In this document: piece after piece, positions 11,858 to 54,100 of the stretch
Position numbering within the stretch: position 1 is the first letter of the stretch
Layout of the letters: each line of letters begins with the position of its first letter
NCBI GenBank assembly: GCA_964019135.1
Contig: OZ025265.1
Coordinates: 21,427,143 to 21,491,142 of the forward strand
Reading direction: 5' to 3'
DNA length: 64,000 bases
Origin: Arenicola marina
Taxonomy: Eukaryota > Annelida > Polychaeta > Arenicolidae
Program-made: the position numbers and the translations under genes
The notes under the pieces: model-generated
Databases searched by the model: none
The model's input: only the letters and a program-made list of their open reading frames with translations
What the model was told of the DNA's origin: nothing

Positions 11858-14800
11858 CTGCCGGCGGAAAATGTGGATGTTTTAGACCGCTGTTGTGGAC
11901 ACGAAGGTAACATTGAGACCAGAAACCGTCCATGGTTTGGTTGCATATTCAGTACGCTTTAGCCGCTTTTGGTCATATCGCGTCGATGGGAGAAGGGAGA
12001 GTCAAGCCATGTCCCCGAGGTAACCCGCTACTTTTTGCGAAGGCGGATATACTGCGATCATATTCAGGACATTTTAACTAATTCTGGTCATATCGCGTCA
12101 ATGGGAGAAGGAAGGGAAGAGCGAAGCCGTGTCTCCAGGGGAAACCCCCTACTCTTTTCGAAGAAAGACAACCGCAATTATGGCTCGACCATATGTAAAC
12201 CATTAACGAAACTTTTTAATATGTGTCTGTTTGAATGTAGAATGCCAGTTTTATGGAAAAGAGCGAATGTAGTTCCCATTTACAAGAAAGGAAGTCGTAG
12301 TCATGTAAGCAATTACCGTCCTATATCTCTCTTAAGTTGCACCGGGACGTTACTCGAACGCATTATATTTAGACATACTTTCAACTACCTTCGCGACGAC
12401 GACATATTGTGTAGATTCCAATCAGGATTTATCCCCGGAGATAGTACAGTCAATCAACTAGCGGAATTGTATCATGTTTTTAGTGAAGCGTTGGATAAGA
12501 AGAAAGATGTTAAAGTTGTATTTTGTGATATATCCAAAGCTTTTGATAGGGTATGGCATAAAGGTCTCCTGAAGAAATTAAGCGGTATAGGTATATCTGG
12601 CAATTTACTTTGTTGGTGTGAGGACTATATGAGGGATCGATGTCAGAGGGTTACCATCAAGGCTGAGGCGTCCGAGTGGGGTCTTATAAATGCGGGGGTA
12701 CCACAGGGTTCAGTTCTCGGACCGCTATTATTTCTTATCTATATAAATGACATAACTGAAGGTCTGGAATCCAACATACGGCTGTTCGCAGATGACACCA
12801 CACTTTATATTATCTCAGGGGACAATATTGATAGCAATGATATTTTATCTGAAGATTTATTGAAATTAGAATGCTGGGCTGACAAATGGTTTGTTACATT
12901 TAATGCCTCGAAAACAAAGGCTATGGTAATATCCAATAAGTTATCTGACACTCAGATGGAGTTATGCATGGGTTCAGAGAGGCTGCAGGTCATCCATGAT
13001 CATAAACATCTCGGACTAACGCTAAACAGCAAATTATCTTGGTCTCCTCACATTAATGAAATATATCATAAAGTTATCAGAAGAGTGGACATGCTCTCGC
13101 GATTAAGGTATAAGTTGGGTCGTAGGTCCCTGGATATTATGTACAAAAGCTTCATTAGACCGTCAATGGACTAAGCTTGTGTGGTATGGGACGGCTGTTC
13201 GCAATCAGACTCGGATCGATTAGAATCGGTGCAGCTGAGGGCGGGTAGGTTGGTTTGTCGAGCTATTAAATATACAAGCCATCTCCATATTTACAATGAA
13301 CTGGGATGGGAGACACTGGCCACGCGAAGGGAGAGGTTTAAACTATTGCTTTTTCACAAACTATTGTATACTAGAGTTCCAGAATATCTGTTTAATTTAA
13401 TTCCGCCAACGGTCGATTCCAGAACTTCCTATGCTCTACGAAACTCTAATACAAACAGTGTCACACCTATCAGGGCAAGATTAACTACGTTTTACAATTC
13501 TTTTGTTCCCAGTACAATTAGAAGGTGGAACGAACTGCCCGCTCATATTCGAACAACTACCGATTTCAATGAGTTTAAAAGACAACTCTGTAAGAAAACA
13601 GACGTCCACAGTTTAAGGAAGCTTTATTATCTAGGAAGTCGGAAGACGAATGTCATTCACGCGCGTCTAAGGATGAATTGCAGTACTTTAAATGCTCATC
13701 TATTTCATATGCATATTGTCGACAGCCCGCGGTGCAACTGCGGTGCTGCTAGCGAAGATAGCGTTAATTTTTTCTATTCTTGTCCAACATACACAAATGA
13801 GCGCGAAATACTGATGGGAAAAATAGTTACTCATACCCCGATGTCACTAGGCACACTTCTTTTTGGTAACCCATCCTTGTCTTACGATACAAATGTAGAA
13901 CTCTCCACAGCTGTACATAAATATATCGAAAATAGTAAACGCTTTAAATAGACATCAAGTGTACCTATTGCTGCGTGGTTAAATTATCGAACTATTGGCC
14001 AACATAGTGTTAATTCTTTGAATCTGTATTTACTGGTATGTGTGTGTGTGTTATATTATATATTATTATTATGTGCAAGAGGAATTAATATAGGCCTTGC
14101 CTGTTTTCCGATTGTGAAATAAAAATATGTTTAAACCAATTATGTTTCATAATTGCATTTGTTGAGGGCGAGTGCAACATAGAAGGAAGGGAAGAGCGAA
14201 GCCATGTCTCCAGGGGGAACCCCCTACTCTTTTCGAAGAAAGACATGGGATCTTTATCCTGCGACCACACAGACATGGCCACAGCGGAGGGTGAACCACC
14301 GATCCACGTGCCGTTAGGCTCTAAGGTAGCCAGAATGAGAGCGCTCCAGGAAATGTTGGTGTATAGGCCGCTGTTGAATGCTACATTGATACCAGAAACC
14401 GCCCAGGACAACGAAATGGGATTGGAAGAAACGTTCCTCAGATGCAGGTGGCAGTGTTAGCCAGAAGTTAGAAGAAGTTCAATTGTACTCCAGGCGGATT
14501 GGGGGGAGGGGGGTCGGGTTATATTGTCTTTTGCAGAAACTGCTCTCCTAAAATATTAAATATCTTTGAAAATAGTTCCCGAACCTTGCGGAAATTTTGT
14601 TTCCTGCATGAAAATCCATGATTTTGGTATACTATTGTCATTTTGAGTTGAGATGGGGTTATTCCCAAACGCAGATACCTGTCCCAGGGCATATAATGAG
14701 TATGAGCATTAAGTAGTGGGGTATTTGGATGTAAGTTTGTATTCCCCTCATGGGTACTATAGGTCATAAAACCAAAAAATTCATTGAAGACATTAATATC

Positions 14801-17800
14801 AGGATTTTTCAAAATGATACCATCCACATCCACAACTTATGATATTACAAAGATATAACCGCACTGAGCGTTAGTTTTAGCAAAAAAAAGATAAAGTACT
14901 AGTTGTTAAACCCAGAAAATGTACGAGGTAATCAGCTATGAGGCACCAGTTTGACCTCCGTCTGACCTTGACACATTTGTCTTCTCCGGCCGTGGCCACC
15001 AGTCCCAGCGTCTGACAGCAAGACACGGCTGTCACCTCGAGACGGAAGTAAAGGAAAACATTTAATAGCAATGAATATACCAAATATGTTACAGATACAG
15101 GTGCTGTTTAACACGATATCCGCAAATATACTACGCTAATTACTTCATCTTGTTAGTGCTTATGGAGAAGACCAAGTGGCATTGAAATATGTTATGTGAT
15201 AATATTAATAAGCGGTTTTGTATATATAAGCAAAATATCGCAAATGCAACATAATAAAGTTTCCCTTTAAGGGGATGTCAAAAAGCATCGAGTATCTCTA
15301 GCAATAACTTATATGCACACACACATGAAAAAAGTGTATGACAAATTAAAGCCATTGATTATCGATTGTAGCCATACGGAAAATGACAAGTAAGCCGCTG
15401 TTACCATAGACAAACGAATTCTAACCCGATGGGATTATGCAATATAATCTTGAGCAGGATCGAAGAAAGTTTCGTCGTCAGCAACTTACAGATCAAGGGG
15501 CACTCAGCGTAGGATGCGTTCCAAAACAAATTTAATTCCTAATTAAGATATCTGACAAATTTAACATTTCCAGTTGGTAAAAATAACCATGAATATAAAT
15601 ATGAGTATATGTTGTATCATGGTCAGGTAGGTAGCGTTATACCTGGCCTTTGTGAGCCGACGCCCTGTTGACTGGTAGAGGAGTGGCTGTTAATTCGTTG
15701 TCAATACTGCATAAAAGCTTCGTAAAGCGTACGACACTGCTCCCAAGTGACAGTGACATTGGAATGATATGCAATAGAAATGGACAGTAGATAGCAAATT
15801 GAACATTTAATCAAGTGCGTTGCAATTAATATTAGCCATGGAATTGAACAAAATGAATGGAACTTAAATTAATGCAATTTGACAAAGGTGACATTAGATT
15901 TATACATACATTTGCGTACGAAACAATCGACTAACGATGTTGGACAAAAGTGCCACCAAGCGCGAATAAGTCAGGGTTTTTGATGTTGACAAATTTTGTT
16001 CCATTAAATGATGAATATGGATGCTAACACAAGTTATGGCAAAAAGAGACGCTTATTGATTTCGATAACAAGCTGATGAGGTGTAAAATGATGGGTATTG
16101 GCTTAAACAGATAATTTTTTGATAAAGGTGAAAAACAATTGACAATTTTGGAGTTCGTTTCCACTTTGAGAAGAAGAGATATGATGACCTTGTCCGTATC
16201 TTACCCGTCTTGGTAGGTTGTGTATCCCAGAAGGCGACCCGCGAGAAACAAGTGTCGAGGCGTCAGCAACTGTTCTACCTGTCAAATTGGACCAACTAGA
16301 GACGTGTGTTCATGTGGGGGGGGGGGAGGGATTAATACGCTGGATAAGACAGCTGTTGTTTACCTGAAGCTTGTATGATTATCGAGATCTGTTTTCAATA
16401 AAAGATCCCATTACCATTTGCCACAATGATTCACACTTCGCTCGATCGTACCGAGGGATGTCAAATATAGGGCAAAAATTGATAGCTTTGCAGGCCCAGA
16501 ACTTGGTTTCATGATTATTTCCGTGTATTTTATTTTAATATTTTTCCTTAATTGCGATAAAGTCATCTCAACTGTTTCACTAAGCAACATCCAACGTTCA
16601 TGTTTTACAATTTTGCTCACGCAGGTTAAGCACCAATTTGTCGCATCCCCATTACCATGTCAGGAAAACCCCCTTAGCTCTGGGTTCATGTTTGACCTTT
16701 TTTGGCTACAGCCTATAGTATGGCCGTCATTGATAATATGATTAACTTGATTAAGTACGTCCCTGATAAACTGGACAGGCCGTACATATAATGTGCCCAA
16801 ACAATATTACAAAAAAACCACAAACATATATACAACGAAAACCGCCGTTGCGTTGTAATGCGTAACGGTTTCCAGACCGAGGGAGACCGGCCGCCTGAGT
16901 ACCGTAGAACCGTCCGTGCGGGATAAGGTGTCTCTATAAATAGCCTTCTGAGACCTGCTCATGCACAGCGCATGAACACGCACTAACGGTTCTACGGTCA
17001 ATGGTAGGAGGAGGAGGAGCAAACATAGAACGGACCCACTTCCCGTGTTGGTTCCTCTTTTCGATAAGACCTTTCAGGAGGTCAGAACTTTATCCTGCCC
17101 TAACAGCCACACTTGCCGAGTTGGATTCGACCCCCCCCCCCCCACTCCGCCATCTGCTGCTCGATGGCACGATGGCCAGCCCGGCAGACTTCACCTGACA
17201 AAGTAGAGTAGGCCAGACACCAGCCGTGCTGATGAGCCCCATTGGGGCGCGAACTTTGCGGCGATGGCTGGCCTGGCAGAGAGAGCTCAACGGGCAAAAC
17301 CGAACGCGCTAACCAACAGACCTTTCAGGAGGTCAGACAGACAGAGACAGAACAGCTCACCGCGAGCAAAAGTTCCAGGCCTAACTCCCCGTCCTGGCCG
17401 AGTCGTGTGATTTTCCATATTTTGACCAGGAAGTCGGTGCCGCAAGACACGAGCGTCTCCATCCGCAAACATGGCGCCGCGTCCTCCGTCGTCAATGGCG
17501 ACGATGTCGTCAGCATAGTGACGTGGCCTTGATGGGCGCGGGAAGGCTCCCGGAAGTAGGAACGCCGAGCCACAATGAGGGATATCTGGGTAATATTACA
17601 AGCCAATACCTCATATCGATATCTTATATGTTAGAACGGTAGATTTAACCATTTGTTAAATTTTAATAAAAAAATATGATAGAAAACTGTGAACAAAATA
17701 CCAAGGCAATCCAGGTAGCATGAGGGAAATGTATGTAATAGACACGATAAATGTGAGTAGAATTTGCTGTTTACCACCAGTTAGTAAATAGTATGACACA

Positions 17801-20800: not shown

Positions 20801-23800
20801 GTGGCGTTCACCGGTAATTTATATAATGTTTTCCATGTATCCCTTTCTATTTGTACACCTAAAATATCTGACCATTTACGCTCATTATTCCGCCCGTATG
20901 TCAGTGATTTAACTAATGTTTTATAAGTTTCGTTGCACACACGCTTCATCTGCTTTATATGATTCGTAAATTTACAAACAACTGATTTTAGCTTTATACC
21001 TCCTCTTAACATTTCATATTTCCATTATCTGGGAATAGAATGGATCAGCCCGTAGAAATCCGCAAAATTTATGCGGATATCAAACTTTATGCAAAAATCA
21101 TTCCAGCCCATGAACTCCCCTTGTTCGTTAATAACATCATTAGCAAAAACTATACCTTTCTTGATAAATTCGGTCTTTCTACATGTAACATTTTCATTAG
21201 TCATAAAATAAGTATTCCACAAAGGATACTCCAACACATTACGGGTAATCTCAATATCCTTGCTCACTTGCCGGTAGCAGTACCAGGAATTAAAAACATC
21301 AGCCCAAAATGGGTTTTCTACCTTAATAAAATTTCTTAATGAATGCAAATCTAATTCCCAACAATGTACTTTTTCACCACAAATAGTATCACAGAGCATT
21401 ATATGTGCTTAATCTGTTTGGCGAAGTCAGTAGTAACAAGTTGTACAAACCTTGTAGGATGGAAATGGATAGACTATAGTGACGGCAGCCCCCGTAACTG
21501 GCGATAGCAACCGCAAACTGCCGTCCTGTGGGACAAAACAAGAATAAATCCTACACATAGAAAAGAAAAAGAGTAGATACACAAAACAAACATTGGGAGC
21601 ATAACGCCATTGTCACAATACTAAGATTTTCGTAAAAATTACTTTGATTTTGACGGATGTTATAATGTAAAATTACCTGGTGAAGTGTAATCATTCATAC
21701 GGAGCAAAAGCATTTCAATTATTGATCCCTTAGAATAGCCGCAATAATTTTATGAGCCGGCCAGCATTAAATCATGTTATGAAGCGTCTTCAACAGTACC
21801 TCCACAGCTGCCACAATACGACTAGCGCCCTCTGTTGTTGGCCACCTGGTGAGAGAGTGAACTCCAGACTGGATGGTTGAAAACATCTTGGTGTACTGAG
21901 GAACAAAGAACATAAGTAAAGAAGATAGATTGACAGGTGACTCGACCTGTTCAGTCATAGAACAGCAATCTGGGCATCAGTCGCATGTACATGCAAAAGC
22001 GGTTCTACGGTAGTTTACCATACTGAACACAGCAACGTGGACACCAGTCGCTAGTTGGGAATCGCATGTACACGCAGTGGCGGTTCTACGGTAGCCTAGT
22101 ATCACTAACCATACTGAGAACAGCAATGTGGACACCAGTCGCTAGTTGGAAATCGCATGTACACGCAGTGGCGGTTCTACGGTAGCCTAGTATCACTAAC
22201 CATACTGAGAACAGCAATGTGGACACCAGTCGCTAGTTGGAAATCGCATGTACACGCAGTGGCGGTTCTACGGTAGCCTAGTATCACTAACCATATTGAG
22301 AACAGCAATGTGGACACCAGTCGCTAGTTGGAAATCGCATGTACACGCAGTGGCGGTTCTACGGTAGCCTAGTATCACTAACCATACTGAGAACAGCAAT
22401 GTGGACACCAGTCGCTAGTTGGAAATCGCATGTACACGCAGTGGCGGTTCTACGGTAGCCTAGTATCACTAACCATACTGAGAACAGCAATGTGGACACC
22501 AGTCGCTAGTTGGAAATCGCATGTACACGCAGTGGCGGTTCTACGGTAGCCTAGTATCACTAACCATACTGAGAACAGCAATGTGGACACCAGTCGCTAG
22601 TTGGAAATCGCATGTACACGCAGTGGCGGTTCTACGGTAGCCTAGTATCACTAACCATACTGAGAACAGCAATGTGGACACCAGTCGCTAGTTGGAAATC
22701 GCATGTACACGCAGTGGCGGTTCTACGGTAGCCTAGTATCACTAACCATACTGAGAACAGCAATGTGGACACCAGTCGCTAGTTGGAAATCGCATGTACA
22801 CGCAGTGGCGGTTCTACGGTAGCCTAGTATCACTAACCATACTGAGAACAGCAATGTGGACACCAGTCGCTAGTTGGAAATCGCATGTGCACACAGTGGC
22901 GGTTCTACGGTAGCCTAGTATCACTAACCATACTGAGAACAGCAATGTGGACACCAGTCGCTAGTTGGAAATCGCATGTACACGCAGTGGCGGTTCTACG
23001 GTAGCCTAGTATCACTAACCATACTGAGAACAGCAATGTGGACACCAGTCGCTAGTTGGAAATCGCATGTACACGCAGTGGCGGTTCTACGGTAGCCTAG
23101 TATCACTAACCATACTGAGAACAGCAATGTGGACACCAGTCGCTAGTTGGAAATCGCATGTACACGCAGTGGCGGTTCTACGGTAGCCTAGTATCACTAA
23201 CCATACTGAGAACAGCAATGTGGACACCAGTCGCTAGTTGGAAATCGCATGTACACGCAGTGGCGGTTCTACGGTAGCCTAGTATCACTAACCATACTGA
23301 GAACAGCAATGTGGACACCAGTCGCTAGTTGGAAATCGCATGTACACGCAGTGGCGGTTCTACGGTAGCCTAGTATCACTAACCATACTGAGAACAGCAA
23401 TGTGGACACCAGTCGCTAGTTGGAAATCGCATGTACACGCAGTGGCGGTTCTACGGTAGCCTAGTATCACTAACCATACTGAGAACAGCAATGTGGACAC
23501 CAGTCGCTAGTTGGAAATCGCATGTGCACGCAGTGGCGGTTCTACGGTAGCCTAGTATCACTAACCATACTGAGAACAGCAATGTGGACACCAGTCGCTA
23601 GTTGGAAATCGCATGTACACGCAGTGGCGGTTCTACGGTAGCCTAGTATCACTAACCATACTGAGAACAGCAATGTGGACACCAGTCGCTAGTTGGAAAT
23701 CGCATGTACACGCAGTGGCGGTTCTACGGTAGCCTAGTATCACTAACCATACTGAGAACAGCAATGTGGACACCAGTCGCTAGTTGGAAATCGCATGTGC

Positions 23801-26800
23801 ACGCAGTGGCGGTTCTACGGTAGCCTAGTATCACTAACCATACTGAGAACAGCAATGTGGACACCAGTCGCTAGTTGGAAATCGCATGTACACGCAGTGG
23901 CGGTTCTACGGTAGCCTAGTATCACTAACCATACTGAGAACAGCAATGTGGACACCAGTCGCTAGTTGGAAATCGCATGTACACGCAGTGGCGGTTCTAC
24001 GGTAGCCTAGTATCACTAACCATACTGAGAACAGCAATGTGGACACCAGTCGCTAGTTGGAAATCGCATGTACACGCAGTGGCGGTTCTACGGTAGCCTA
24101 GTATCACTAACCATACTGAGAACAGCAATGTGGACACCAGTCGCTAGTTGGAAATCGCATGTACACGCAGTGGCGGTTCTACGGTAGCCTAGTATCACTA
24201 ACCATACTGAGAACAGCAATGTGGACACCAGTCGCTAGTTGGAAATCGCATGTACACGCAGTGGCGGTTCTACGGTAGCCTAGTATCACTAACCATACTG
24301 AGAACAGCAATGTGGACACCAGTCGCTAGTTGGAAATCGCATGTACACTCAGTGGCGGTTCTACGGTAGCCTAGTATCACTAACCATACTGAGAACAGCA
24401 ATGTGGACACCAGTCGCTAGTTGGAAATCGCATGTACACGCAGTGGCGGTTCTACGGTAGCCTAGTATCACTAACCATACTGAGAACAGCAATGTGGACA
24501 CCAGTCGCTAGTTGGAAATCGCATGTACACGCAGTGGCGGTTCTACGGTAGCCTGGTATCAGTAACCATACTGAGAACAGCAATGTGGACGCCAATGGCT
24601 AGTTGTACATCGCATGTACACGCAGTGGCGGTTCTACGGTAGTTTATTATCACTAACCATATTGAGAACAGCAATGTGAACCTCAGTCGCTGTCCAGTAG
24701 GCGAGCTGGCCACCCGATATGAACTTCATCCCGTAGATCGGTTGACCAATGTCTATCCTTTGTTCCTGTCAAGGAGAGTGAATTTAACATTAATTAATAT
24801 GTGTGATGTGAACCGGCAGTCATCGAGACCTCATTGGTAACGAGGAATTGGTAGTGCGACTATTTGTGCCACGCTATTGCGATGTTCAAAATGAAAAGAT
24901 GTATGCAAATATAAATACGCAAGTTATAATCTTTTCGTAGGCAGGTTAATAATAACACCCTTCCACACTCCGAGCTAACGCCCGCTCACGCTTGAAAACT
25001 TTTTCGTTTTAAAATATTGAGCATGAGAATCATAGCTGATGGTAGGTAAATGTTTCATGCCTGAAACTGACAAGGAAAATGACATGCTTTGTGTTTCGGA
25101 GTTGTTTGTCGGACATAACGCACGTGAAAGACCGTTTTTCTCCACATGATTGGATAAAAGCAACAGTGACGTCAATGAATGATTGACAGCCTGGATTGGT
25201 CTATTATATTAGGCCTACCTAACATCACTGATTACGTGTTTATTGGAATGGAAACACTGACGGCCTTCCGGTTAGTGTCTGGCGTATCGCAAAGTCTTAA
25301 TCCATGGCTTCAAACTGTCGCATTGATTTTTTTTTTTTTTTTTTTTTTTAATATAAAAGTTTATTCACAAAGAGAAATATAGTACACGCAGATGGTATAG
25401 CACGTTGATGGTACATAAATTATAACTACTATTTTGTGTATGCTAGATTACTTTCTATATTCTATGGATAGTTGCTTTAGTAGCGTTATGGTATCTTGCT
25501 GTTTAATCGTGTTTGCATACAGTGATGCCCTTGATGCTAGTTCGTGAGTAAAAAACCTTATGGAATTCTCCCAAAGACGTGGTTTGTCATCATTGACAGA
25601 CACTAACCATTCTTTATATAATAAATATGCTACCAATGTTACTACCAGATCTTCAGTTTTATTGTCGCGGCCCATATATATATCTTGGAGCTGTATTGGC
25701 TTAACTGTCGCATTGATGTCACCACCTTTTTGATTGTATAGTAGAGCGCGCGTGATACATTTATGGTTGAATACTTCTCGTTGAGTACAAGCAAACGATC
25801 AATTAGACTATCGCGTCTCAGTGCGATAACACGTGCGTGTGTCTATACTCCCCATGGAATTCAAATTTCTCCCTTCCCACTTTACAGCTATTATAAGCTA
25901 TGAAACGCGCCCAAAAGTATTTTCTTTTATCGTGTGGCACGGGCTGCCAACTCGTAAAGTAACGCGGTCCGCGATCGCCAGAGGTGCCACTCTCACCGGC
26001 TCAAAGGTGTCCAGTCTCCAGATGCGGATGGCGCCATCTAGCGAGGCGGTGAGAAGCAGCGGTTTGACTCTGTGAACCAACATGGCGGTGACTGCCAGAC
26101 GATGTCCTGGGAACTCGTGCATCCCGCTGAAGACTCGCCGATGCCACACCTACAATAAAGACCATAGCAATAAGTTCAATAAATAAACTAATTTTTGTGA
26201 TATATTTATCATTATTTTTTGTGAAATTAATAAAATTACTTTTAAAAATAACTCATGCAACTGTTGTGAAATAATTTACATAATTGTTGTGAAAGAATTG
26301 ACATAATTGTTGTGAAATAATGTACATTATTTATTTGAATAAAATATTACAACATTTTGTGAAATGCAATTTTACATTATTGCTAAAAAAAATTGTTTTA
26401 TTTTTACCACTTTGGTACACATCATTCTATTAAATAGTTCATCTTATTTCTTATTTGACAAATGTGGTTACTTGCTGCATGGTGTATTGGGGAAAAAAAG
26501 TCTCATTGATAATACAATAGGACTACTTTGTGAGAATAAGGACTATGAACATGGCAAGAATACTTGTATTTGATCAATATGACTTTGCGTTATGCTAGCC
26601 ATTGCATTACAACTTAAAAGCTACGGATATAAAATACTGGACAAATATACATTTTGCGCTTTTGATTGGAATGATGTAATCAAGATACCCAGTATATGAG
26701 TCTATAGTGGTTGGTCTAACCTTCACAGCGCCATCTCGTGAGGCAGTTAGGAAGTAATCTCGTCTGTCGTGCAATGCCGTGCTGGAAGGATGTATCAACG

Positions 26801-29800
26801 GTTACAACAGTGGCAATCAAATGCCAACAGTAGGGGGGGGGGGGGGGTATTTATTTTCGCCGTGGAAGATTTTTCTCGTGATTCGAGAGTCCACGAGTCT
26901 CGTGATTGACAAATGTAATTGTTCGAGAGCATGGTGAAGTCGCACCGAGAACTACGGTAATTGGAAACGCGCAATCTCCATGATTCGGACAACGGTTTCA
27001 TTATCTTCGTGAACCGATACAGACGTTCGTGATTTGGGAACATGATGCTACCTGCCCCCCCCCCCCCCCCTCCCACTGACAGTGAACAGGGTATTAAATC
27101 TTCGCCCATCGGTAAGCTACATCACCTGCTATCACTACAGTGTAGGAGTGGCTCAATATGAAGCGAGTTTCAGTTTCTTCTATGTTGCTCAGATAAGTTG
27201 ATGATATATACAAGTATATTTATTCCGACAGAATTCCCTAACTTAGTAATTGACAAAGGAAATTGGCGGCCATCTTGGATTTTGTCCATTTCCGGAAAGC
27301 TGCACCAGTTCTGAGTTCCTAATATTACCCGTGCAACAATTACCTTACAAACTTTTTATGGTGTGGGTGTGTACACTTTACGGAGATTAACTACGAAAGT
27401 CGAAAAATAAGCCACTTTTGGGCTGCCACCCGCTAATGCGGATTTCGTCACATTTTAATATCGGCTGAAAATTATGCGGTTTATTCTGTCAGTGGTATAT
27501 GTGCATATATGGAAATAAACGAGAATAATGTCGGAGGTTTATATCGTGAAATAAATTAAACACCAGAATGTTTCTGCTACCAAAGGAACGATGTTCACCA
27601 TGTTAGGCCAGTCGCGTGGCGGTTGTTGAAGCAATGGCCCAGGACGCCTGTCTGAAAGATGATAAACCACGTTTACAGGGTTATGATGGACAGACTTACG
27701 TCCCATCTGTCCAACGCTGGAACGTATGCTGCAGCCATGAAGAGATTCACAACACCCCAACAACCAGTTGATGAAAAGTATTTTCTCATCTCAATTAAAC
27801 ATCGTAGCCCTATTCAAAATGATATTGATTGCGTTATCCAGTATCAAAATAAAAAAACCCACCTACGTTATACATTATACGTTTGTATTCCATTGCGTAA
27901 TATATGCGATTCTACCGACTTCCGGAATGGACAGTTGGACGATTAATCAGTAACTGTGACCCCAAAGCCACCCCCCGACGACCCTCCACCACCGCCCCGG
28001 CTACGACCTCCCCCGGCCCCCCCCCCCGGACGACCACGCCCCCACCACCAACCCCACCCCACACCGGCTACTACCGTCCCTCCGAAGACCCCGCCCCCCT
28101 CCCCTACCACACACCGGCGTACGTACCATATAGTTGACCGTGAAGATAGCGTGGTCAGCCTGAATCAGCAGCAGGCGTTCTTTGTCGTTGACTTTCATGT
28201 TCATCACCCGCTGACAAAGGTCAATTTAATAACTCCAACTTAGTTTTTTTAGTGAAAAAGACGGACCCTTTCATTGCAATAAAAAGCGCCCGATATAACT
28301 CGATTTGCTGGCACATTTTTTTCTGATCAGCAATTACAAATTGATATTATATATATATACATATTTGCCAGTTCTTTGGTAAATATATGGCCCTGCCAAA
28401 CAAGCACGTATCGACAGGGGTCCGGGGCCATCAGGGTAATGCCGACCACCCCTGTCATCTGGAGGTTTCTTGACTAAACAAAAAGCGAAATTTAATGTGC
28501 ATACGTTGGCACAAAATGGGGCTCAGAAATGACAGTCGTGTACAATAATGTGCCAGCAACATTATTGGACAGATATTGATCATTTGGCACACAACAATTG
28601 TTCTAGACTATAATCCCCAAAACGTGCATGTATAAACAAACCCAAATGTGGATTTGAAAAAGCTTTTCTCAGTTATCCAATATGTGCGTATTTATCCCTA
28701 TCCTTCTATAAGAGATAATACCACTATTGACCCTGGTGTCAATATATGACCATGATGGATGTGGTATTTATCCCTATCCTTCTATAAGAGATAATACCAC
28801 TATTGACTCTGGTGTCAATATATGACCATGATGGATGTGGTATTTATCCCTATCCTTCTATAAGAGATAATACCACTATTGATCCTGGTGTCAATATATG
28901 ACCATAGTGGCTGTGGTGCCTCACCATGTCCCACTCGAGGTGAACGCTGTCGAAGGTCCCCATAGATTCCAGTCCCTGGCGGTACTGCAGCAAATGATAG
29001 CATATGACAGGGTACAACAGCCACAGACAATTAATAACTATAATGAGCTGGGCTCTATTATATTCCGAGCGTTTACCTCTTGCGTCACGTGGATGATAAT
29101 CTAGGGAGTTTAATTGCCTGAATAATGTGTTGTATTATTAAAACCCCCTCTTGATGTAAAATATTAACCAGCATGCATAGCACATGCAGTGGATAGTCTC
29201 ATGGTAGAATAATACAACCTACGATTGGCGAAGTAGTCTGTACGCACACATTTTAACATGTTGATGTACATCACACACACTGTATATGCGAAAACAAATG
29301 CATGGAAGTTTCGTCCAAAATATATATGGACCCCGAATTAAGGACCAACGGTGTCGCCATCTGGTGACAAGGGTCGTGGGTGTGTGGAGACAACCATTGG
29401 GCATCCGACTCACATCAGCCAACTTCCAGCGGCCTAGTTGTCCAATGCCGCCCACCACCAGCTCGTCCGTCGCCGCCACGTGGCACATACTGGGCGATAA
29501 TAACAGAAATAATAACAACAGTAATTATAAAACAAGTAGTACTAATAGTAGTACTGATTGCGAATGACGTTAGTAGTGATGATAAAACTACTGGTAATAA
29601 TGAAATAAGGTATAATAGCGTTGTAAGTAGTAATAGTATCGTCATAACTAATATGAGAATAATAAGAATAAATTAATAATATAACAATTACCATAATAAT
29701 AAAATAAAGAATAATATCGCTGTGAGTAATAATATTATCCTCATAAATAATATGACAATGATAAGAATAACTATAAATATAACAATTACCATAAGAATGT

Positions 29801-32729: not shown

Positions 32730-35619
32730 GGTTCATACAATATCGGGAACCACGAATCTGTGAGATGCAGAGAAATCGTCTAATTAAGTCAATACATCTG
32801 CAGAGCCCAAATATTACCGAAAAGCTACTATTTCGGTACATGACGCTCTCCGCACCATTTGAGCTGGCATCGGTGGATACTCATTTTTTGAAAACATTTT
32901 TAATAAAAATGGCACGAATGCGAATATTACCTGCACGTTTATGTGTTTTCGTTTCAACATTTAATAATGAATTATATGCGTACAAACATTGTGCATATGC
33001 CTTAGCTTACATGAAGTCCCAAGTGTTAAGCCTAAAGACGCGATGTGAATATTCCGTAATTTTTCTATGTATTAGATCTGCGTTTTAATTTGTGATTCAC
33101 TATCGATCCTAACAACGACAACGGAATAATTATTATTACTATTAATAGTAGTAATATTATTATTATCATTGGGTTTCTATAGCGCCAACAAATCTGTGAT
33201 TCCGTTTAAAGACGCAGTTAAAAACTGATTTTCTTTAAACATGTGATATATAGTTCACTGAAATAAGACATATATGCACAACACTAATAATCTTCAGCAA
33301 TAAATTTCTAAATATTCTCATTATCATTTTACAGATGTGTTCAGGTGTCATATCATGTGTCAAAACTATCAACAATACTTCAATCAATTCGAAACTGCAC
33401 TGGAAGCCAGTGAAGCTGTCTCAGAGCTTGCATTATGGGGTCGAACTTCTTAAGATTTAGTAGCAGCCATGGCTGCCGCATTCTGAACGCACTGAAGTAA
33501 TGTAAAATCTTATGGTTGAAACTTAGGGTTGTAAAATATAAAATTGCTCATGTTGTCCTATCGCTGCTTACCTACAGATGGAATAGAAGGATGGTCACAT
33601 ATTTTGGTGCCGTCATTTTGCTGGGGTGTTAGCCGCAGCTGTTTCTGCTCGTCATCAATTCTAAATGGCTTAAAACATGACCATGATTGTTTATACGACA
33701 CAATACGTCACGTAGCAACGACAAACGATAGTGTAACCATGGTTACAACTATTGCGTCATAAGCACTATTTATTCATAGCAGTGCATTTTGGCTCTTATA
33801 AATCAAGTTACCTACCTGCAGATCGGCCTATTGATATATAGGGCTATACGGTTCTCGCGATCGGGCTGCAAGACTTTAGTTTGGGGACAAACAGACACAC
33901 GTGCTTCATTTTGCAGTATAGGCAGCTACAAGTCATTTTTTTCCAGGTTTATACTAAAGCCTATGAGTACCATTAAAACCGTCTTCAAAACACTCGAAAG
34001 CTAAAAATAGCGTTCTAAATTTAGCCCTGTACCCGTGCTTTCGCGAGTTCCCGAAAACAGTGTGTGACGTCACAGTTTCACGTGCCTCCGCGGTAATTAA
34101 AAATGGCGAGAGCAAGTGATCGACTTAGCCATTCCCCTGTCAAAATGTAAACCAGGTCAAATGTAGTTGTGAAGTGTATTATCCGCTACCTAAAACAACG
34201 TTTAGACAAAATGTAAACAAACAAACTGGCGGAGTCGCTTGAACAGTTATAGTTCCGACATCAAAACCACGAACAAAGTGGTTGCCTTTGATGTCTGAAC
34301 TTGGAAGGGGAGGGGGGGGGGGGGGGTTCCAAAGAACGAAGAATAAATGTCTTTATTCCCAGGTCAAGATGAATTAAATGGAGAACTCACCGCATACAGA
34401 GGAAGGGCGGATACATGATACACATTTGCGCTTTCCCAATTCATGGTTATTAGTATTGAAATTCTCAGTTTACTATTAATGAAAATCATCGATCACGACG
34501 GTCGGCGGCTAATATCTCATTCGCAGTTAACGAAAAATTAGTTTGCTCATTCCTAATTCACGGTAAAATGCAAAGCCTGTTCCCGACCAACAGAAATACC
34601 CCCTTGCCCCGCCCCCCCCCCCCCCTCGAACTCCCCTTGAAAGTGTCCCATAAGAAAAAAAGTAGGCCCTATAGGAGCTTTTAACTGCAAGAAAGAGTAT
34701 TATAAATACAAATCTGGTGGAGGGGTTCCGCAGGTGCCTTGATGCCTAAGAGGCGGATAATTGTGATGAAAAAGATACTTATGATGAACAAGATGCCCCT
34801 ATAGAGAGGATATTTAAAAACTCGCGACCCGGGGAAGGAGGAGGGGGGTGGGGTGGTGCTCCGAAAGTGTGCATTTATAGGGCGGGTTGAGAAAGGGTTG
34901 CCCCGACCGAGCGGATTTGGGCGGTAAAACGCCATGAGCAAGCGGATTTGGGCGATGAGAAGGGGGGGGGGGCGTTACTGCAGAACCCCCACCCCAAACC
35001 CAACAATGTATTAAGTACAACATACATGTCGACCTTGACCCTCATACGCAGATATTCTGGTTCCTTGTCTCGTGCAACGATTATGTACAAAAGAAAACAT
35101 CCCCCGTTCTGTTGCTTGAGAAGCTTTTTTAATCGCTACGTGATCCATCCGTCCGTATTAAAAGAGACGCAGGAAATGTTGTTAATAGCATGATAGTCAC
35201 GATGCCTGGACTGTCCTCACTGTGGCTAAATCTATAACCCAGGTCAACACATTTTTGCATAGGATGGACCGATATCATGGAATCTACATGAAGATGCATC
35301 AGGTGACAAATTAATCCTTTGGTTGGTTATTAATTGGATTTCCTTCCAAGCGGTCACGTTGATATATGGCTCTTTTGTATCATTGAAGATACATGATTGG
35401 ACTGTCTCGTAAGGTTTAGACATCATATGCAGATACGAGTGCATGATTGGGAGTGTGCAATCTGGGAGGCCGCTGCGGTTCGAGAGATGTTCGACTGCGA
35501 AATAATATGCCACAAGTGTCTAGGGCCGTTTTTTCCTCATTAACGCAGATCGGGAATTGCATATATGAGCCCAAAGATGGCATAAAGCACATCATCCGTC
35601 CACATCCTGGATTGCCCGC
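32730..35619. other. Intergenic region between divergent genes
   Basis: The WD40 gene (minus) and receptor locus (plus) diverge from here, so promoters for both should lie within. A degenerate interspersed repeat with AT-rich triplets and tctatagcgcc occurs at about 33,120-33,490. G/C runs lie near 34,310-34,326, 34,608-34,626 and 34,963-34,972. No TATA box or clear start site was singled out. Confidence 0.35.
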
Positions 35620-35649
35620 GTGATATTTACCATCCTGCGCAGCGCCAAC

Positions 35650-37584
35650 ATGGGATATTTGGCGCTCGGTATCAAGCCATTTATATTGGTGACAATAATA
35701 ATGCTTCAGGGGGTAATCCGACCTACTACAGGACGACCTTGGATCGGAGACGTGACCTTGGAATGGTACTATCTCGACCTACACGTGTACACGTCATTTA
35801 ACCGATGTGACCTTGAGCACAGCTGCGATACCATGACAACGGTGATGCGGGACGCCCTCTCCCGCACTAGGATGTGGGTGGCATCTTGCCAGCCGGCTCA
35901 GATCTGTTCCAGGATCCGCCCCGAAGACAATTCGCACTTCTCTGGGCCGGCCACGACTCTTTTCTCACCCTGCGGAGCGGTGAAGGCTGTAACTAATAAG
36001 AGAACGTATCTCTCATGGCGCATCCAGATTCCCCCCAGCTTACATCTAAATGTAACCGTCTTTGCTCTAAAGACTCTGGATGGGTTTCCCTTTTGCGACG
36101 ACAACCTGGTTGAAAAATTAGGGTTGGCAAGAACTGTTGTTGTCCCAGAATCTGGTGATTTCGTCATACAAGCGCGACATTTCTCTACAGTTTGTGGCGC
36201 TTGGGGGCCTCATAGCTATTATCCCAAAACGCATGCCGTCAGCATCTTCTGGAAAGCCGAATACACGGGCATTGAGGACGCCCAGTTTTGCTTGGCGTAC
36301 CAGCCGATTTTTTATCCACGGAACAACGCTGAGGACGTCAGAAGAAATACTTTACTACGACTCGCGCCTAGCTCCCCGCTGTACGACCTGCTCGACGGTT
36401 GGTTGGGTGATGCCACATTCACGTGGCGTGTAGAAGGCCCACCGCGGACGGTGTCAGGGGTAGCTATTTCAGCATTTGTATGTCGCAAGGATTCATCAGG
36501 CTCAGGGGGAGAAGTCTGGGTAAGAGATGGGCCATTTACACCATTCGATTCCGCATTTCAAGGGGTTAACTTCGCTGTAATATTCACGATGGTTTGTGGT
36601 ATTGAATATCCCACAGAAGCAGACGAGCAATATGGAACCATAGGTGCAGTCACGATGCAAGCAATTCTCCGCAACGGGCAAACAGCTCGATTAACATTTC
36701 GGTATTTATTTAAAATTATCCGCTGCGCGTCCCATCCAGACAGTTGTGATCCGATGATAAAGCTTCGGGATCACTCTCCACCGGCGTCGCTCAGCTTGAC
36801 GACAGGTGGAGCCACCGTTCAGAACGGCGTTTGGATCAGCGTCCCACTCATGAATTCCCGATTTCTTCGTCTGGATAACGTGACAGCAGATTACACCGGA
36901 TTGACTCAATTCGGTTGCCATGGAGGCGGGATCTTCATCATTGAATCTCTGGATAATGCGAAGAATCATACGCCGAGGTTTCGTCTGCTAGCGGCCATTT
37001 GTTCCCGCCGGACGTCCGATATCTGGAAGGCCAATTTCCGCCGGAAGGGTTTGCACTTCAGCCACCATCCCGTGTGGCTCCTAGTAAAAGCGTACGCCGA
37101 GGTGAACATAGTGTCTGTAACAGCCATGGCGACTCTCTCCGGATGCGAAGGTTTCATGAACTTACGCCACTATACAGAGCCATTAGGGTATCAAACCGCT
37201 GATATCTACGCCCGGGCTGACTTAATCATCATCAACATGACTACGTCCGATTACTGCATCGTTGAACAGTCCATCTGGTCGGACGATATGGGCGATCTTT
37301 CTTCATATCCAGGTAGAGTCAGCGGGTTCCATTTCCTCGGACAACCTCTAGGCGACTCGAAAATCCCGGCGAAATACTCCCTGACTTGGTTAACGACCTT
37401 CCCACGATACGACGCCCTGGGTTTTGATGCCTTAGCCGGTAGGGCCAACCTGTGCCGCTACTTTGCCATCTACCCCGAGGCCTTCTATCGGCTAGATCCC
37501 GATCTCACCTTCAATATGAATGGTTACAGTAGGGAGTTGATCAACAGGGCTACGTGTACAACCACTGTACGCGGCTCGGAGTAA
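35650..37584 (+). CDS. Receptor ectodomain, part 1 (signal peptide and Cys-rich/CUB-like region)
   Basis: An uninterrupted frame of about 645 residues. The Met at 35,650 is preferred over the in-frame one at 35,620 because it leaves a compact signal peptide (MGYLALGIKPFILVTIIMLQ). Paired Cys residues are scattered (for example CDLEHSC, CGAVKAV, CDDN, CRKD, CASHPDSC, CHGGG, CSRR) with N-linked glycosylation sites such as NVT and NMT. CUB-like folds are common in this receptor type, but I cannot assign them firmly. The frame ends in TAA at 37,582-37,584, while the preceding base frame continues for another 320 codons. Confidence 0.7.
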   Translation: MGYLALGIKPFILVTIIMLQGVIRPTTGRPWIGDVTLEWYYLDLHVYTSFNRCDLEHSCDTMTTVMRDALSRTRMWVASCQPAQICSRIRPEDNSHFSGPATTLFSPCGAVKAVTNKRTYLSWRIQIPPSLHLNVTVFALKTLDGFPFCDDNLVEKLGLARTVVVPESGDFVIQARHFSTVCGAWGPHSYYPKTHAVSIFWKAEYTGIEDAQFCLAYQPIFYPRNNAEDVRRNTLLRLAPSSPLYDLLDGWLGDATFTWRVEGPPRTVSGVAISAFVCRKDSSGSGGEVWVRDGPFTPFDSAFQGVNFAVIFTMVCGIEYPTEADEQYGTIGAVTMQAILRNGQTARLTFRYLFKIIRCASHPDSCDPMIKLRDHSPPASLSLTTGGATVQNGVWISVPLMNSRFLRLDNVTADYTGLTQFGCHGGGIFIIESLDNAKNHTPRFRLLAAICSRRTSDIWKANFRRKGLHFSHHPVWLLVKAYAEVNIVSVTAMATLSGCEGFMNLRHYTEPLGYQTADIYARADLIIINMTTSDYCIVEQSIWSDDMGDLSSYPGRVSGFHFLGQPLGDSKIPAKYSLTWLTTFPRYDALGFDALAGRANLCRYFAIYPEAFYRLDPDLTFNMNGYSRELINRATCTTTVRGSE

Positions 37585-38540
37585 GCACCCAGGTCGTGAT
37601 ACAACCCTTGTCGCTCGGCCGGGCGCAGTGTATCCCAGCCGCCATGACAGAGCAGATGAAGGCCTCGTTGTGGGCACTGGGGAGCATGGAGCTGGCTCTC
37701 CCTCACTGGGCGTGTGGGGAGGTCGTTCTGCGACCCGTCTCTGGACTGGACGGAAGTGACGTCAGTTTCGGGATTCTCCCCAAGCGATGGTCGTTACGTC
37801 ATGGGACATGCTGCGTGGCGCGCATGACGCTGGAGCGCGTCTGCGGGTTACAACAGCAGGATTCGGTGGCCATCAGGAGGACCGGGGTGGGAGGGTTATC
37901 CGCCTTAAACTGGCGGGGGGAGCACCTGGCACAGGCAGCGGTTCCGGTAGCTGATCGGTACTTTGGGGTACGATGGCAAACTGATGTGATCGGGGACGAT
38001 TTAAACCTGTACACCATCATTAAAGGTGGTACGTGCAATACAACCGTTGAATATCAATTCAGCCGGGTGATGACGTCGTCATGGTTGGTTGATGCAGTTT
38101 CGAGAGGTCCAGAGATGATGATGGCGTCCAACACGACGCCTCGTTACAGCCGTTGCCACGCTTCTGGTGCAGCTGGCGTGCCTACGACGCCGCTAGATGG
38201 CGACACAAATACAACACTCTCGGACGACCAAGATGATGACATGGTGACGCCACAAAAAGACTTGGCACTTGATGATGACTGCTCGCTGATCTCCTTCATC
38301 GCTGGAACTCGTGATTTTTGTCATCCACGAATGGGACTCTGTTTTCACAGTCTGGGAGTGGGACACACATCCTGGATCGAGGCCAAAGCGTCCTGTCGAC
38401 AGACAGGTGCCCGGATGTTGGAGGTCAACAACGAGTTGGAATGGAGGTGGTGGAGGCAGATATTCGCACGACAGACGGCGGATTCCCACACCCTTCTAGG
38501 CGTCCAGATGTTTTACATTGACTTGCAGCGGGAAGCGCAG
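37554..38540 (+). CDS. Receptor ectodomain, part 2, ending in first half of a C-type lectin-like domain
   Basis: The -1 frame continues the ectodomain after the overlap at 37,554-37,584. From about 38,277 it reads DCSLISFIAGTRDFCHPRMG, then CF, W-x-EAKASCRQTGARMLEVNN, the start of a CTLD (the first Cys, then W-x-EA-x-x-C). The exon ends in phase 0 at a weak GCAG|GTTTGA donor. An Asp-rich linker precedes the CTLD. Confidence 0.65.
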
Positions 38541-39889: not shown

Positions 39890-40270
39890 CTAGGTATTGT
39901 TATCATGTTTTAGTTTTTTGTACAGAAATCGCAACGCAACCGTGCCTCGACGTTGGCAGTAGTTAGTGCAGTCTGGTAGTGCTTCTTTGTGAGTAAAATG
40001 TTCATATGAAACTTGAGTTGCCGATATGATAAACAACCCACCATCGTCCATTGTCTCTCCTTCTAAAGTACAGTTAATCTTAGTCGCATATATAAACACA
40101 CATGTATGTTTCAAACAACGCTGGTCGTAGAGTGATACTGGTCTGTGCGGCATTGTGCACTGGGTGACTGGCCACTGCGCTGGCCACTGCCACTGCAGAC
40201 GACCGAAAAATGTTTCACTTACATTCGACAAATTCATTTGCTTTTCCCCGTCTAAAGACAGCCAATACAA
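39890..40270 (-). CDS. Unassigned cysteine-bearing ORF inside the receptor intron
   Basis: A 126-codon open frame on the minus strand between the two CTLD halves. It contains LQWQWPAQWPVTQC, several Cys (QRC, HTC, INC, DCTNYC), and NVS and NCT glycosylation sequons, so it looks like extracellular protein. No fold or family was recognised. A TTGGCTGTCTTTAG acceptor precedes it. It may be an exon of another gene, an inverted receptor segment, or chance. Confidence 0.25.
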   Translation of the reverse strand: MYWLSLDGEKQMNLSNVSETFFGRLQWQWPAQWPVTQCTMPHRPVSLYDQRCLKHTCVFIYATKINCTLEGETMDDGGLFIISATQVSYEHFTHKEALPDCTNYCQRRGTVALRFLYKKLKHDNNT

Positions 40271-40514
40271 TATATAAGCATTTGTGAAGTATCCTCCTAA
40301 TTACGTTTCTTGATTAAGACACCCTTGATAAGTGATCTTTAAGACAGGCACAACTTATACAGACACAATTTAATATACGCTGTTGATTCCTTTCAGTCTG
40401 CTACATTACGTAGAGAAGATGGTTCATCACAAGCATTTCAGAGTTGGACGATGCCGAACAAGGGAACATTCTTACCCTTAAAATCTGGTTGATCAGCAAG
40501 CTCAACTGCTTCAG

Positions 40515-51108: not shown

Positions 51109-54100
51109 CTACGGAGAGTATTTGATATTTGAGTATCAGCATATTAAGGTAGGTCAGCATGAGAATAAAATGGGCAGATCTGAATACATTTGTAATACTT
51201 TCTCCACAACACACAGGCACCAAATACAAAGTGCAACATTTCTTCTACGAAAAACTTTGAACTGGACGATATTATCCCCTGGTATAGCATGAGACACGCG
51301 TAAATTCCTAATCGTGCAAATTAGCCGCAGATTAGATAAACATAGCAGAGTTTATTATATCTTTTACATTTTTAGTTCTTTCAAATCACTCTAACTGGTA
51401 TCTATATAAATATGTTTCCTAGTGAAATACCCCTCTCCAATATTAAGACACAATGGCTGCATAAGTAAGAAGCAATTGCTGTAACAAGTGTTACTATTGC
51501 AATATACATGAAACAATGCTTAAATATTCAGTGCATCTTTACACCTAAAAACCACTAAACATTTAATCAAAATTAATGCGAATTAACATGTGTTACTTAT
51601 TTAATTAAAATCAATGAGAAATTAACATGTGTTGCTTATAAAATTAATGCGAATGTTAATCTTATATAATATTGAACTCATTAATCTAATGAGGTCAGCT
51701 TACTTGCCTTACCGACGGAGCACTTGACGACTGTTGTTCATTCACAAATGCCAAGAGTTACTCACGTCGTTGTCGTAGTCAGCACTCGGGATGTTCCGCT
51801 CGGGAAGCTTCGTCTGGTAGCCGAACATGGCAGAGACATCCCGAGGTCGCCCGGACGACGTCCGCAGGATTGGTGCGGTATCCCCAGCCACACCCGCCAG
51901 GGAGGTTGACAGCGGCCCGGCGTGCATGTCTACGTCTCCATGGTAACGGGCCTGTGGGTCGGCGGGGTAAAGATTGCCCTGGTAGGTGTGATGTAAGTCA
52001 TCTCTGGGGTCACCATGGTGAAGGTCCCTGGGGTCACCATGCTGGTTTCTGGGGTCACTATGGCGGAGGTCTTTCGGATCAACAATTTGGCCAATAGGGT
52101 CGCCGTGGTGGTCCTTAGGATCAACATGGTTACCCCTAGGGTCACCATGGTGGATGTCTTTGGGATCAACAATGTGGCTCATGTATTCGCCATGGTGTTC
52201 CTTAGGGTCAACATGGTTGCCCCTAGGGTCACCAGGGTGAGGGTCTGTCGGGGCAGTCGCCTTGGCAGTGACAGCCGTAGGGTCGTGACTACCATCTGAT
52301 GCCATCACCGCCAGCGCCCCTAGTGGCAAGTCTCCGGCAGCATGTATTCTTAAACCAAATAAAGACCAAAATCAGTTTCACGAGAATCGGTTCAGCGAGC
52401 GGATTTGGTGATTATAGCAAGCTGTAGGGACTCCAAGCTCAGCGCACGGTGGCGTTACGCAAGCTCCGCTTTTACCGCTGCTGTCGGCCTGGGCAAATAT
52501 TCTGATTCCTAAAAAACTGTCAAATTACCTGTAATTATTTACAATATTATATTTTCCAAGAATCAATCATAAAAATAACGAAAAATCTCGAAAAAGTTAT
52601 AATTGTGACTGAACTCTTTTTTATCAACCCCTAATACCGCGTGTTATCAGGCTTAGGCTTGGTTCGGGCACTAATTTGTAGAAATACGCTATCAATTTGC
52701 GCAGCGCCGCCCTGGCGAGCGAGTGTAAAAATGCATTGAGGAAGTAGGCGACAACAGAGATCTAATGGAGCTTTAGCGGAGCGTCAAAGGCATATAATGG
52801 ACCCAGATGGAGTTAGTCGAAGGCAGAGAGTGTAAGATCTCCAGATGACTTCTAGGCGTCCATGGGAGACTGATTGTCAGCTCCACTAGTTGCCAGTACC
52901 GGTGATATTGAGACAGATATTTCAAGCCGAATCATGAACAATCTTGTTCACTAATAGAGCCAGATCGTAGAGAGGCAATTTAATTAATGTGGAAGGCGTG
53001 TGAGTGTCTTATGATTGTGAATGATGAAAAAAATCGCATGTCGATCTGGGCAAAGAGTAGCACATCCGGTTACGTCGATCCTCTCTACATTGACCCTGTC
53101 CATTATCGCTTATATGACTCAAATAGGTTGAAGTGTCCTACGTAAGCCAACCAATTAGCACTGTATATCAGTAGTGATCTACATAATTGGCTCCCATCGG
53201 CGACAATTATTAGTATTCCTCGTTGTGCAATTTGCTTCCAGCCAATATCATTCTAATTAATACTTGTAATACATTACCATCATCCCCTGATAAAGTGGCC
53301 CACTTGGCTTCCCGTGGTTAATCGATAGCTGTCAGTGGTGACCTACTTGGCTTTCCATTGATAAGCAATAACTGCCATTGGTGACCTACTTGGCTTTCTA
53401 TTGAAAAGCAATAGCTGTCAGTGGTCACCTACCTGGCTTCCCCTGGTTAAGCAATAGCTGTCAGTGGCGACCTACTTGGCTTCCCTTAATTAGGCAATAG
53501 CTGTCAGTGGTGACCTACTTGGCTTTCCCTAGTTAATGCATAGTAGTCAGTGGCGACCTAATTGGCTTCCCTGGTTAAGCAATAGATGTCAGTGGTGACC
53601 TACTGGGCTTTAAAAGTAATATGTGGTGACCTACTTGGCTTTAAAAGTAATATGTGGTGACCTACTTGGCTTCCCCTAATTAAGCAATAGCTGTCAGTGG
53701 TGACCTACTTGGCTTCCGCCACCACGTCGTCATACACTCCTGACAGCCTATCGCCTGGAGTGGCTTCATAGCGGTCCATGGCGGCTCTGGAAGCAGTCAA
53801 GGTCACGTGCAAGGTCAAGTCATTCATATCCACTTACTCGAGATATATTACTGATTAATGAATAGGCTTTAATGAGTGACTTTAATTTATTTACTTATTT
53901 GATTAATTATGAATAAATATTCCTTATACATGTCTTTTCACGGCCCCCTCTTTATTTGCGCATGTTCAATTATGATTGATACACGTAATATATATCCAAT
54001 GAACCGCCAGGCCTAGAGAACCGTAGGACCACCGTTGCGTGTTCATGCGGTGTGCAGCTGCATTGCAAGCCCCGAGCGGCCGGCCGGCTCACTGTTGTAG

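Follow-up and report, generated by a model that had tools for sequence, protein, structure and literature searches.

A minisatellite, probably of the amphioxus mirage kind, built on an exon end and its 5' splice site, in a WD40 gene of Arenicola marina

Tandem repeats extending across exon-intron boundaries, known as mirages, have been described in amphioxus, where they occur in the Adh3, troponin C, globin and PGBD5 genes; the hosts named in the pertinent parts of the two reports are cephalochordates, and regular splicing is there reported or suggested (PMC3087553, PMC3902484). For the amphioxus globins, ongoing growth and gain of introns has been proposed (PMC3087553). Intron gain by tandem duplication across an intron-exon boundary is also known and, in the part of the description used here, one duplication yields a new intron. 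The minisatellite of human IFI6 (6-16) was reportedly found by Turri et al. in 1995 to yield multiple splice donors. Two downstream repeat units of this gene serve as donors in the account of PMC4526556. Tetris (PMC4079207) and Cg_HINE (PMC7492417) exemplify satellites derived from tandem repeats within foldback or Helentron elements.

The array described here was found in the annelid Arenicola marina, in a window of 64,000 nt (contig OZ025265.1; all coordinates are those of the window), within a WD40 gene on the minus strand. It adjoins a 108-nt WD40 exon (EQRIDIGQPIYGMKFISGGQLAYWTATEVHIAVLNM, 24658..24765; exon 11 in the numbering of an earlier, sequence-only reading), which is preceded by a 153-nt exon containing a WD40 Pfam match (25997..26149). 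The next exon (96 nt, YTKMFSTIQSGVHSLTRWPTTEGASRIVAAVE, 21800..21895, its end site placed by the reading frame) has the acceptor TTTGTTCCTCAG, and a further exon of 75 nt (DGSLRLLSPVTGAAVTIVYPFPSYK) occupies 21451..21525. The 108-nt exon is of phase 0-0 and its junction with the 96-nt exon is in frame, from which we infer splicing at 24658, with the true 5' splice site and the beginning of the intron at 24648..24657 (GTTAGTGATA) and an intron of 2762 nt (21896..24657). The best stretches of several solved WD40 chains cross this exon (residues 5-126 of the 136-aa query for a Lis1-type chain and 4-112 for Utp12); a coatomer alignment over residues 14-80 is weak alone (7.4 bits). Since the exon is in frame with both neighbours and its tail falls at the expected WD40 blade strand, the direction of copying appears to be from exon to array.

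A tandem-repeat scan of the window placed the array at 22017-24691 (period 91, matches 98%). Cut from the donor onwards, it comprises 29 full 91-bp units running on the minus strand from 24657 to 22019, each consisting of a donor with intron start, a piece resembling a dispersed repeat and the copied exon tail (the unit count is that of one assembly). As many as 21 of the 29 match the consensus exactly, four carry one change and two carry two, and the most diverged are unit 29 (four changes) and unit 1 (eight). A thirtieth slice (21956..22018) is a decayed unit, with the donor-like GTAAAC, which retains TAAACTACC and GACTGA as in the exon-side copy. Together these make up about 98% of the intron, and the acceptor lies about 60 nt beyond them. 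The intron thus consists almost entirely of the array, a feature that the sequence-only reading did not mention. The homogeneity of the array, seen in one assembly, would fit a possible mirage-type length instability between alleles.

The earlier reading held that about 34 nt of the exon end are copied in each unit with about 30 matches, and alignment gave exactly 30 of the last 34 nt. Aligned alone against a dimer of the unit, the exon scored 48, a value reached by none of 5000 dinucleotide shuffles (best 27), so the likeness is not at the level of chance. Among 1129 further 108-nt segments taken from the window, the highest scores were 40 and 35; both segments contain the dispersed repeat to which the other half of the unit is ascribed. 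It was also borne out that every unit brings a donor and intron start: the array begins precisely where the exon's 5' splice site lies, and unit 1 abuts the exon in the orientation of the gene.

The dispersed-repeat piece, which recurs along the array and occupies 24604..24646 (minus strand) in unit 1 (TAAACTACCGTAGAACCGCCACTGCGTGTACATGCGATGTACA), is identical at 38 of 43 positions to a composite sequence for the start of the element and at 33 of 38 to the consensus, built here, of its 69-bp monomer; the sequence-only reading made no mention of this likeness. The core of the family has 1449 matches in the genome, about 30 of them in the array (reversed control, 0). Within the window, further core copies are found at 16969..16998 (minus strand), in an inverted-repeat element at about 16850-17000, and at 54020..54049 (plus strand, two mismatches). 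Homology of the unit to the monomer of this element is not full-length, as only about 43 of 91 nt match. Because its other half resembles this family, the 91-bp unit is, judged by composition, a host/mobile-repeat chimera.

In its organization the locus agrees with the amphioxus mirages, as far as these are covered by the parts of the reports compared: the unit crosses the exon-intron boundary (34 nt of exon, donor, intron start), an exon that the frame continuing to 21895 marks as authentic adjoins the array in the same orientation, the copies retain their splice signals, the middle is homogenised and the edges are excluded. As in amphioxus BflGb9, it is the 3' boundary of the exon that is duplicated. 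By these features of sequence, the array is another minisatellite of the mirage kind and no unique oddity. Unit number and size differ: here there are 29 units of 91 bp, whereas two published BflGb6 haplotypes have 6 and 3 units, each of 150-160 bp, and the units of Adh3 measure 10-72 bp. Unlike the mirages as there described, the present unit is about half similar to a dispersed repeat and the array fills nearly the whole intron. As regards a cephalochordate host, a search for GFP-family proteins gave no match, but neither did any of its controls; mitochondrial COX1 was located on contig C762 (7161-8501). Duplication of the boundary is shared with the known case of intron gain, whereas here an existing intron would grow by repeated copies. 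With Tetris and Cg_HINE, in the portions of the descriptions compared, the array has in common that part of it goes back to a dispersed element which itself contains tandem repeats, and with Tetris the inverted-repeat layout of that element. However, in both of these the unit is all element, whereas here half of it is host exon and splice site.

The expectation of about 30 candidate donors ahead of the next acceptor held, since 29 copies follow the true donor. In 27 of these 29 the sequence from -3 to +6 is identical (ATG/GTTAGT), the two deviating copies being those of unit 2 (GTTACT) and unit 30 (GTAAAC). The true donor does not differ from the decoys in 9-mer, in PWM score (2.23, by our own matrix) or in U1 pairing (-6.0 kcal/mol), so the site itself gives the first donor no advantage. 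Predicted accessibility of true versus decoy donors was 0.0119 versus about 0.0014 in one folding window and 0.0004 versus about 0.0002 in another, i.e. no robust difference across the two. A special RNA structure was rejected, as the RNA of three units folds no better than shuffles (z -0.02), and the 64,000-nt window contains no Rfam family at gathering score and no tRNA. Cassette micro-exons were rejected as well: the best acceptor within a unit scores 1.3, versus 6.8 for the exon's own, and without a good acceptor the units are unlikely to act as cassette exons. A coding repeat was dismissed because the unit length of 91 is not divisible by 3; open stretches span 48-54 aa in the array and 60 aa at the exon edge.

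Use of any decoy would lead into an in-frame TAG at intron nt 22-24 (24634..24636, minus strand), the eighth codon beyond the exon and at least 67 nt ahead of the next junction. The protein would thus be cut short and, by the rule on stop-to-junction distance, the RNA probably destroyed by nonsense-mediated decay. This differs from human IFI6, where the extra donors likewise come from a minisatellite but, in the account compared, the downstream donors are used and three mRNAs result. The first donor is probably still used, giving the 108-nt exon, with the array removed as intron. The suggestion of the earlier reading that the satellite could affect splicing or lead to use of cryptic donors is weakened by the amphioxus mirages, which are reported to leave regular splicing undisturbed.

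At least three more exon-end arrays were found in a small sample of the genome, at exons resembling those of tyrosine hydroxylase, tubulin-tyrosine ligase (TTL) and ALDH1L. The 43-nt dispersed piece is absent from the stretches of these arrays that were read; the tyrosine-hydroxylase array does hold a 12-nt box of it, which its own exon accounts for. The donor word AGGTAAGT, required three times with gaps of 22-52, gave 7690 genome matches versus 3073 for the reversed word. Counted by separate array among the 100 matches listed, the donor word gave 8 arrays up to C1:19.6 Mb and the reversed word 6 up to C1:19.0 Mb, which is no clear excess at the array level. The flanks of three of the eight were read, chosen by hand (one for its coding-looking unit, the other five being left out), and two of the three abut recognisable exons (TTL-like and ALDH1L-like); the array at C1:19.63 Mb has no recognisable protein in its flank.

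We consider the array, with a probability of about 0.8 on the sequence evidence, to be a mirage-type minisatellite, which originated when a stretch spanning the boundary was duplicated in tandem and which then expanded through unequal exchange. A short intron would have held a dispersed-repeat piece from about 11 nt behind the 5' splice site, and a tandem duplication would have taken in this piece together with the donor and the final 34 nt of the exon. Unequal exchange or slippage may then have multiplied the units and made those in the middle uniform, while older ones persisted at either edge. The pre-mRNA would now offer one true donor followed by 29 decoys, the first most likely being used, and occasional use of a decoy would result in the truncated protein and probable decay described above. 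Such an array is probably neutral, and its length probably varies. An origin of the satellite elsewhere was rejected: in a genome-wide search with the 91-bp unit (867 Mb, E <= 0.001, very common words being passed over) all 30 of 30 matches lay inside the array, so the unit did not arrive ready-made.

Could the array instead be functional, its 29 decoys tuning splicing or holding U1 along the intron, with copy number setting gene output? The intact donors in 27 of 29 decoys and the use of two downstream repeat donors in IFI6 (PMC4526556) speak for this; homogenisation alone, however, accounts for the intact copies, any decoy use ends in a stop, and the sections compared of the mirage papers report or suggest regular splicing (PMC3087553, PMC3902484), which leaves a function unlikely. 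Somewhat less likely still is that the array belongs to the dispersed family, with the likeness to the exon end being secondary. That family does form its own arrays (periods 39 to 82) and matches about 43 nt per unit, but fitting exon plus intron start to the 69-bp monomer takes many gaps (score 26, uncalibrated by shuffles), all genome matches of the 91-bp unit in the above search lie in this array, and the piece is missing from the other three exon-end arrays where these were read. Long arrays are hard to assemble and the copy number comes from the assembly alone; a collapsed or inflated repeat is nevertheless very improbable, given that definite units carry private variants, that the edges are divergent and that similar arrays exist at three other genes.

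The mirage-type reading can tentatively be extended, at rather less than even odds, to 5' splice sites as recurrent birthplaces of minisatellites in this genome. There may be a genome-wide class, perhaps of hundreds of genes, whose introns lengthen as their own exon end and donor are copied in tandem. The splicing machinery would then have to select the first among dozens of equivalent donors in one gene after another; at least at the present locus, a dispersed repeat beside the donor would have been drawn into the unit. Against such a class speaks the array count given above, in which the donor word has no clear excess over its reverse. Each such intron amounts to a natural experiment on how a 5' splice site is chosen: behind the one true donor stand dozens of copies, the majority of which are identical across the stretch bound by U1; if the first donor is always used, the sequence of the site cannot be the deciding factor. 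As four arrays came to light in one genome after little searching, this question could be addressed at scale by routine RNA-seq. In addition, the arrays are candidate cases of ongoing intron growth and gain, a proposal made in the relevant part of the amphioxus globin report (PMC3087553).

The 12-nt box, ACCGTAGAACCG, was also considered as a seed of unrelated arrays genome-wide, an idea that was mostly dropped. Beyond it, the likeness among the 41-, 51- and 69-bp units was no greater than among shuffles, and its presence in the 41-bp array is a coincidence, because there it is tyrosine-hydroxylase exon sequence with one change. The box is also common to the 51-bp array, which lies on C3.

The exon whose tail is copied (24765-24658, minus strand, 108 nt, phase 0-0) reads EQRIDIGQPIYGMKFISGGQLAYWTATEVHIAVLNM. 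It is preceded on the same strand by an exon joining it in phase 0 (26149-25997) and followed by exons of 96 nt (21895-21800, YTKMFSTIQSGVHSLTRWPTTEGASRIVAAVE) and 75 nt (21525-21451, DGSLRLLSPVTGAAVTIVYPFPSYK), with phase 0 at every junction of the four; the acceptor behind the array, directly before 21895, is TTTGTTCCTCAG. The WD40 Pfam match in the joined 136-aa peptide (E 2.4e-6, residues 3-36) lies within the part contributed by the preceding exon. For several solved WD40 chains the best stretch crosses the 108-nt exon (Lis1-type, 5-126; Utp12, 4-112), and a coatomer alignment (14-80), weak on its own at 7.4 bits, stops at the last residues of the exon. The copied tail appears to encode an ordinary propeller strand, for which reason we regard the array as derived from the exon.

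Tandem Repeats Finder placed the array at 22017-24691 (period 91, 98% matches). Cutting from the donor gave 29 full units (24657 to 22019, minus strand), while slice 30 is a decayed unit; together these (2639 nt and ~62 nt) make up ~98% of the 2762-nt intron. The sequence-only reading, which had counted about 30 tandem copies of a possible donor ahead of the next acceptor, is borne out on this point, as is its estimate that the unit copies the last ~34 nt of the exon at ~30 positions: the alignment gave 30/34 identical nt, and a unit dimer aligned with the exon alone scored 48, above all 5000 shuffles (top score 27).

The donor ATG/GTTAGT is unchanged in 27 of the 29 downstream copies, the exceptions being unit 2, which lacks the +5 G, and unit 30 (GTAAAC). 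With a donor scoring matrix, all 27 intact copies score 2.23, the same as the true site. Pairing with the U1 5' end, which is present in the genome's own U1 genes, gave -6.0 kcal/mol for the true donor and for the intact copies computed (units 3, 15 and 29), and only -2.6 kcal/mol for unit 2; since edge units are divergent in general, the change in unit 2 supports no conclusion. The U1 snRNA genes form a tandem array (C12:556678-593202; 41 equal-scoring copies, spacing mostly 616 bp).

The middle of the array is uniform and its edges are divergent: 21 of the 29 units are identical to the consensus, four carry one change and two carry two, with four changes in unit 29 and eight in unit 1. Units 10, 13 and 20 share one change, at unit position 40, a pattern that copying of multi-unit blocks would produce. 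TAAACTACC and GACTGA are common to unit 1 (or the exon) and the decayed unit 30, whereas the inner units differ there: the edges are the older part of the array. At E <= 0.001, a search of the 867-Mb genome that skips very common words found 30 matches to the unit, all within the array.

The remainder of the unit is more than old intron of the WD40 gene. The core of a dispersed repeat, ACCGTAGAACCGNNNNTGCGTGTNCATGCG, has 1449 genome matches with <=2 mismatches (reversed pattern, 0), of which ~30 lie within the array and two elsewhere in the window. Among the first 20 loci, 11 of 17 distinct sites have at least two tandem cores, although a single duplicated region accounts for four of the 11; the monomer is usually 68-69 bp, and the loci examined also showed periods of 39, 50, 55, 59, 62, 72, 73 and 82. 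A module containing GGCTATTTATAG or a close variant recurs in several of the locus flanks, as do inverted cores, and we therefore read the repeat as a putative non-autonomous element that combines inverted repeats with tandem repeats in its interior, resembling in this respect the Tetris (PMC4079207) and HINE (PMC7492417) elements. This inverted-repeat element, whose internal tandem repeats are of 69 bp and whose module contains TATTTATAG, is represented in the window at 16850-17000 and 53990-54300. From intron position 12, 43 nt of unit 1 are identical at 38/43 to a composite of the element's start, and 38 nt at 33/38 to the monomer consensus; alignment of the exon and first intron bases with the monomer needed many gaps (score 26, without shuffle control). 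Exon tail, donor and dispersed-repeat piece are united in one tandem unit. A 51-bp satellite (C3:4580117-4581201 and at least 4857668-4865890) resembles the 69-bp element solely in ~15 nt, CTACCGTAGAACCGC.

The array probably originated through one tandem duplication of exon tail, donor and repeat piece, followed by unequal exchange. Use of any decoy (a donor copy downstream of the true site) would bring in a TAG at intron nt 22-24, at least 67 nt before the new junction. Such RNA would presumably decay, which would render the decoys nearly harmless and leave the array free to grow. The first donor probably wins because a normal-sized exon results; no feature of the site itself favours it over the decoys.

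In those sequence features that could be compared, the array matches the amphioxus mirages, i.e. minisatellites spanning an exon-intron boundary. According to two papers (PMC3087553, PMC3902484), mirages carry splice signals in many units and vary in cluster length, Adh3 data and globin RT-PCR suggest that they leave regular splicing undisturbed, and the mechanism of their origin is called unclear. Signal-bearing units are likewise found in the WD40-gene array, where 27 of 29 downstream donors are intact. As to a cephalochordate host, a GFP-family search gave no match, but its controls gave none either; mitochondrial COX1 was located. A literature search without the species name, which cannot show absence, returned no paper on this array or on the three others described below. 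A minisatellite with multiple splice donors was reportedly described in human IFI6 (6-16) by Turri et al. in 1995. Further literature covered comprises PMC4526556, PMC2572611, PMC3618361, PMC2915984, PMC4974935 and PMC3694981.

A search for consensus donors occurring three times in tandem yielded eight arrays up to 19.6 Mb of contig C1 among the matches listed, and the reversed-word control six up to 19.0 Mb among the matches listed; an excess of donor-bearing arrays over those bearing another 8-mer is therefore not clear. The notable point is the exon-end position of two of the three arrays whose borders were read (chosen not at random, one of them for its coding-looking unit). The 52-bp units at C1:4592266-4594349 (ends as listed) copy the end and donor (45/46 exonic nt) of an adjoining exon that resembles tubulin-tyrosine ligase, with E 6.2e-15 for the Pfam family TTL and E 6.2e-9 for the best solved chain. 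The 39-bp units at C1:605720-612276 (ends as listed) copy 16/16 exonic and 37/38 intronic nt of the end and donor of an ALDH1L-like exon; the 21 residues at the end of this exon are similar to 10-formyltetrahydrofolate dehydrogenase (E 6e-9), with no Pfam match at E <= 0.01. Beside the third, a 52-bp array at C1:19632280-19632555 (unit ending GAGAAAG/GTAAGTC), no recognisable protein was found, and the neighbouring stretch may be a non-coding exon or a chance likeness. If the share of 2/3 held, a rough guess from these three non-randomly picked cases would be ~240 consensus-donor exon-end arrays with periods of 30-60 genome-wide (8 x 2/3 x 867/19.6).

A pattern search for a 12-nt box from the intronic half of the 91-bp unit detected a further array on C1, at 65.54 Mb. 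Here, an exon (C1:65539040-65539175) encodes a 43-letter peptide (Pfam Biopterin_H, E 9.7e-24; tyrosine hydroxylase is the top-matching solved chain, E 3.9e-20) and ends in CCAAGCCTGACCATACCGTTGAACC, with the donor GTAAGTACCCCCC. Together with its array (~6 kb, mostly 41-bp units copying exon end and donor) it spans C1:65539040-65545430. A typical 41-bp unit, CTCCAAGCCAGACCATACCGTAGAACC/GTAAGTACACCCC, matches this exon end and donor at 37/40, while a shorter unit type carrying GTAATACC lies closest to the exon. A count over all but 1.6 kb of the array gave 104 GTAAGTAC sites, including the true donor, and 10 of GTAATACC.

Elsewhere in the window, a 76-bp repeat in three copies (28682-28917) begins ~10 nt past a candidate donor at 28927. 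Inspection by eye suggests that the unit copies a few bases at most of the sequence before that donor. Large arrays lie at 45421-50755 (42 bp, 127 copies) and 58676-61691 (15 bp, 206 copies). By eye only, 11963-13951 (+) and 35569-43516 (+) contain reverse-transcriptase-like ORFs and long ORFs resembling LDL-receptor-type and leucine-rich repeats with a receptor-like tail.
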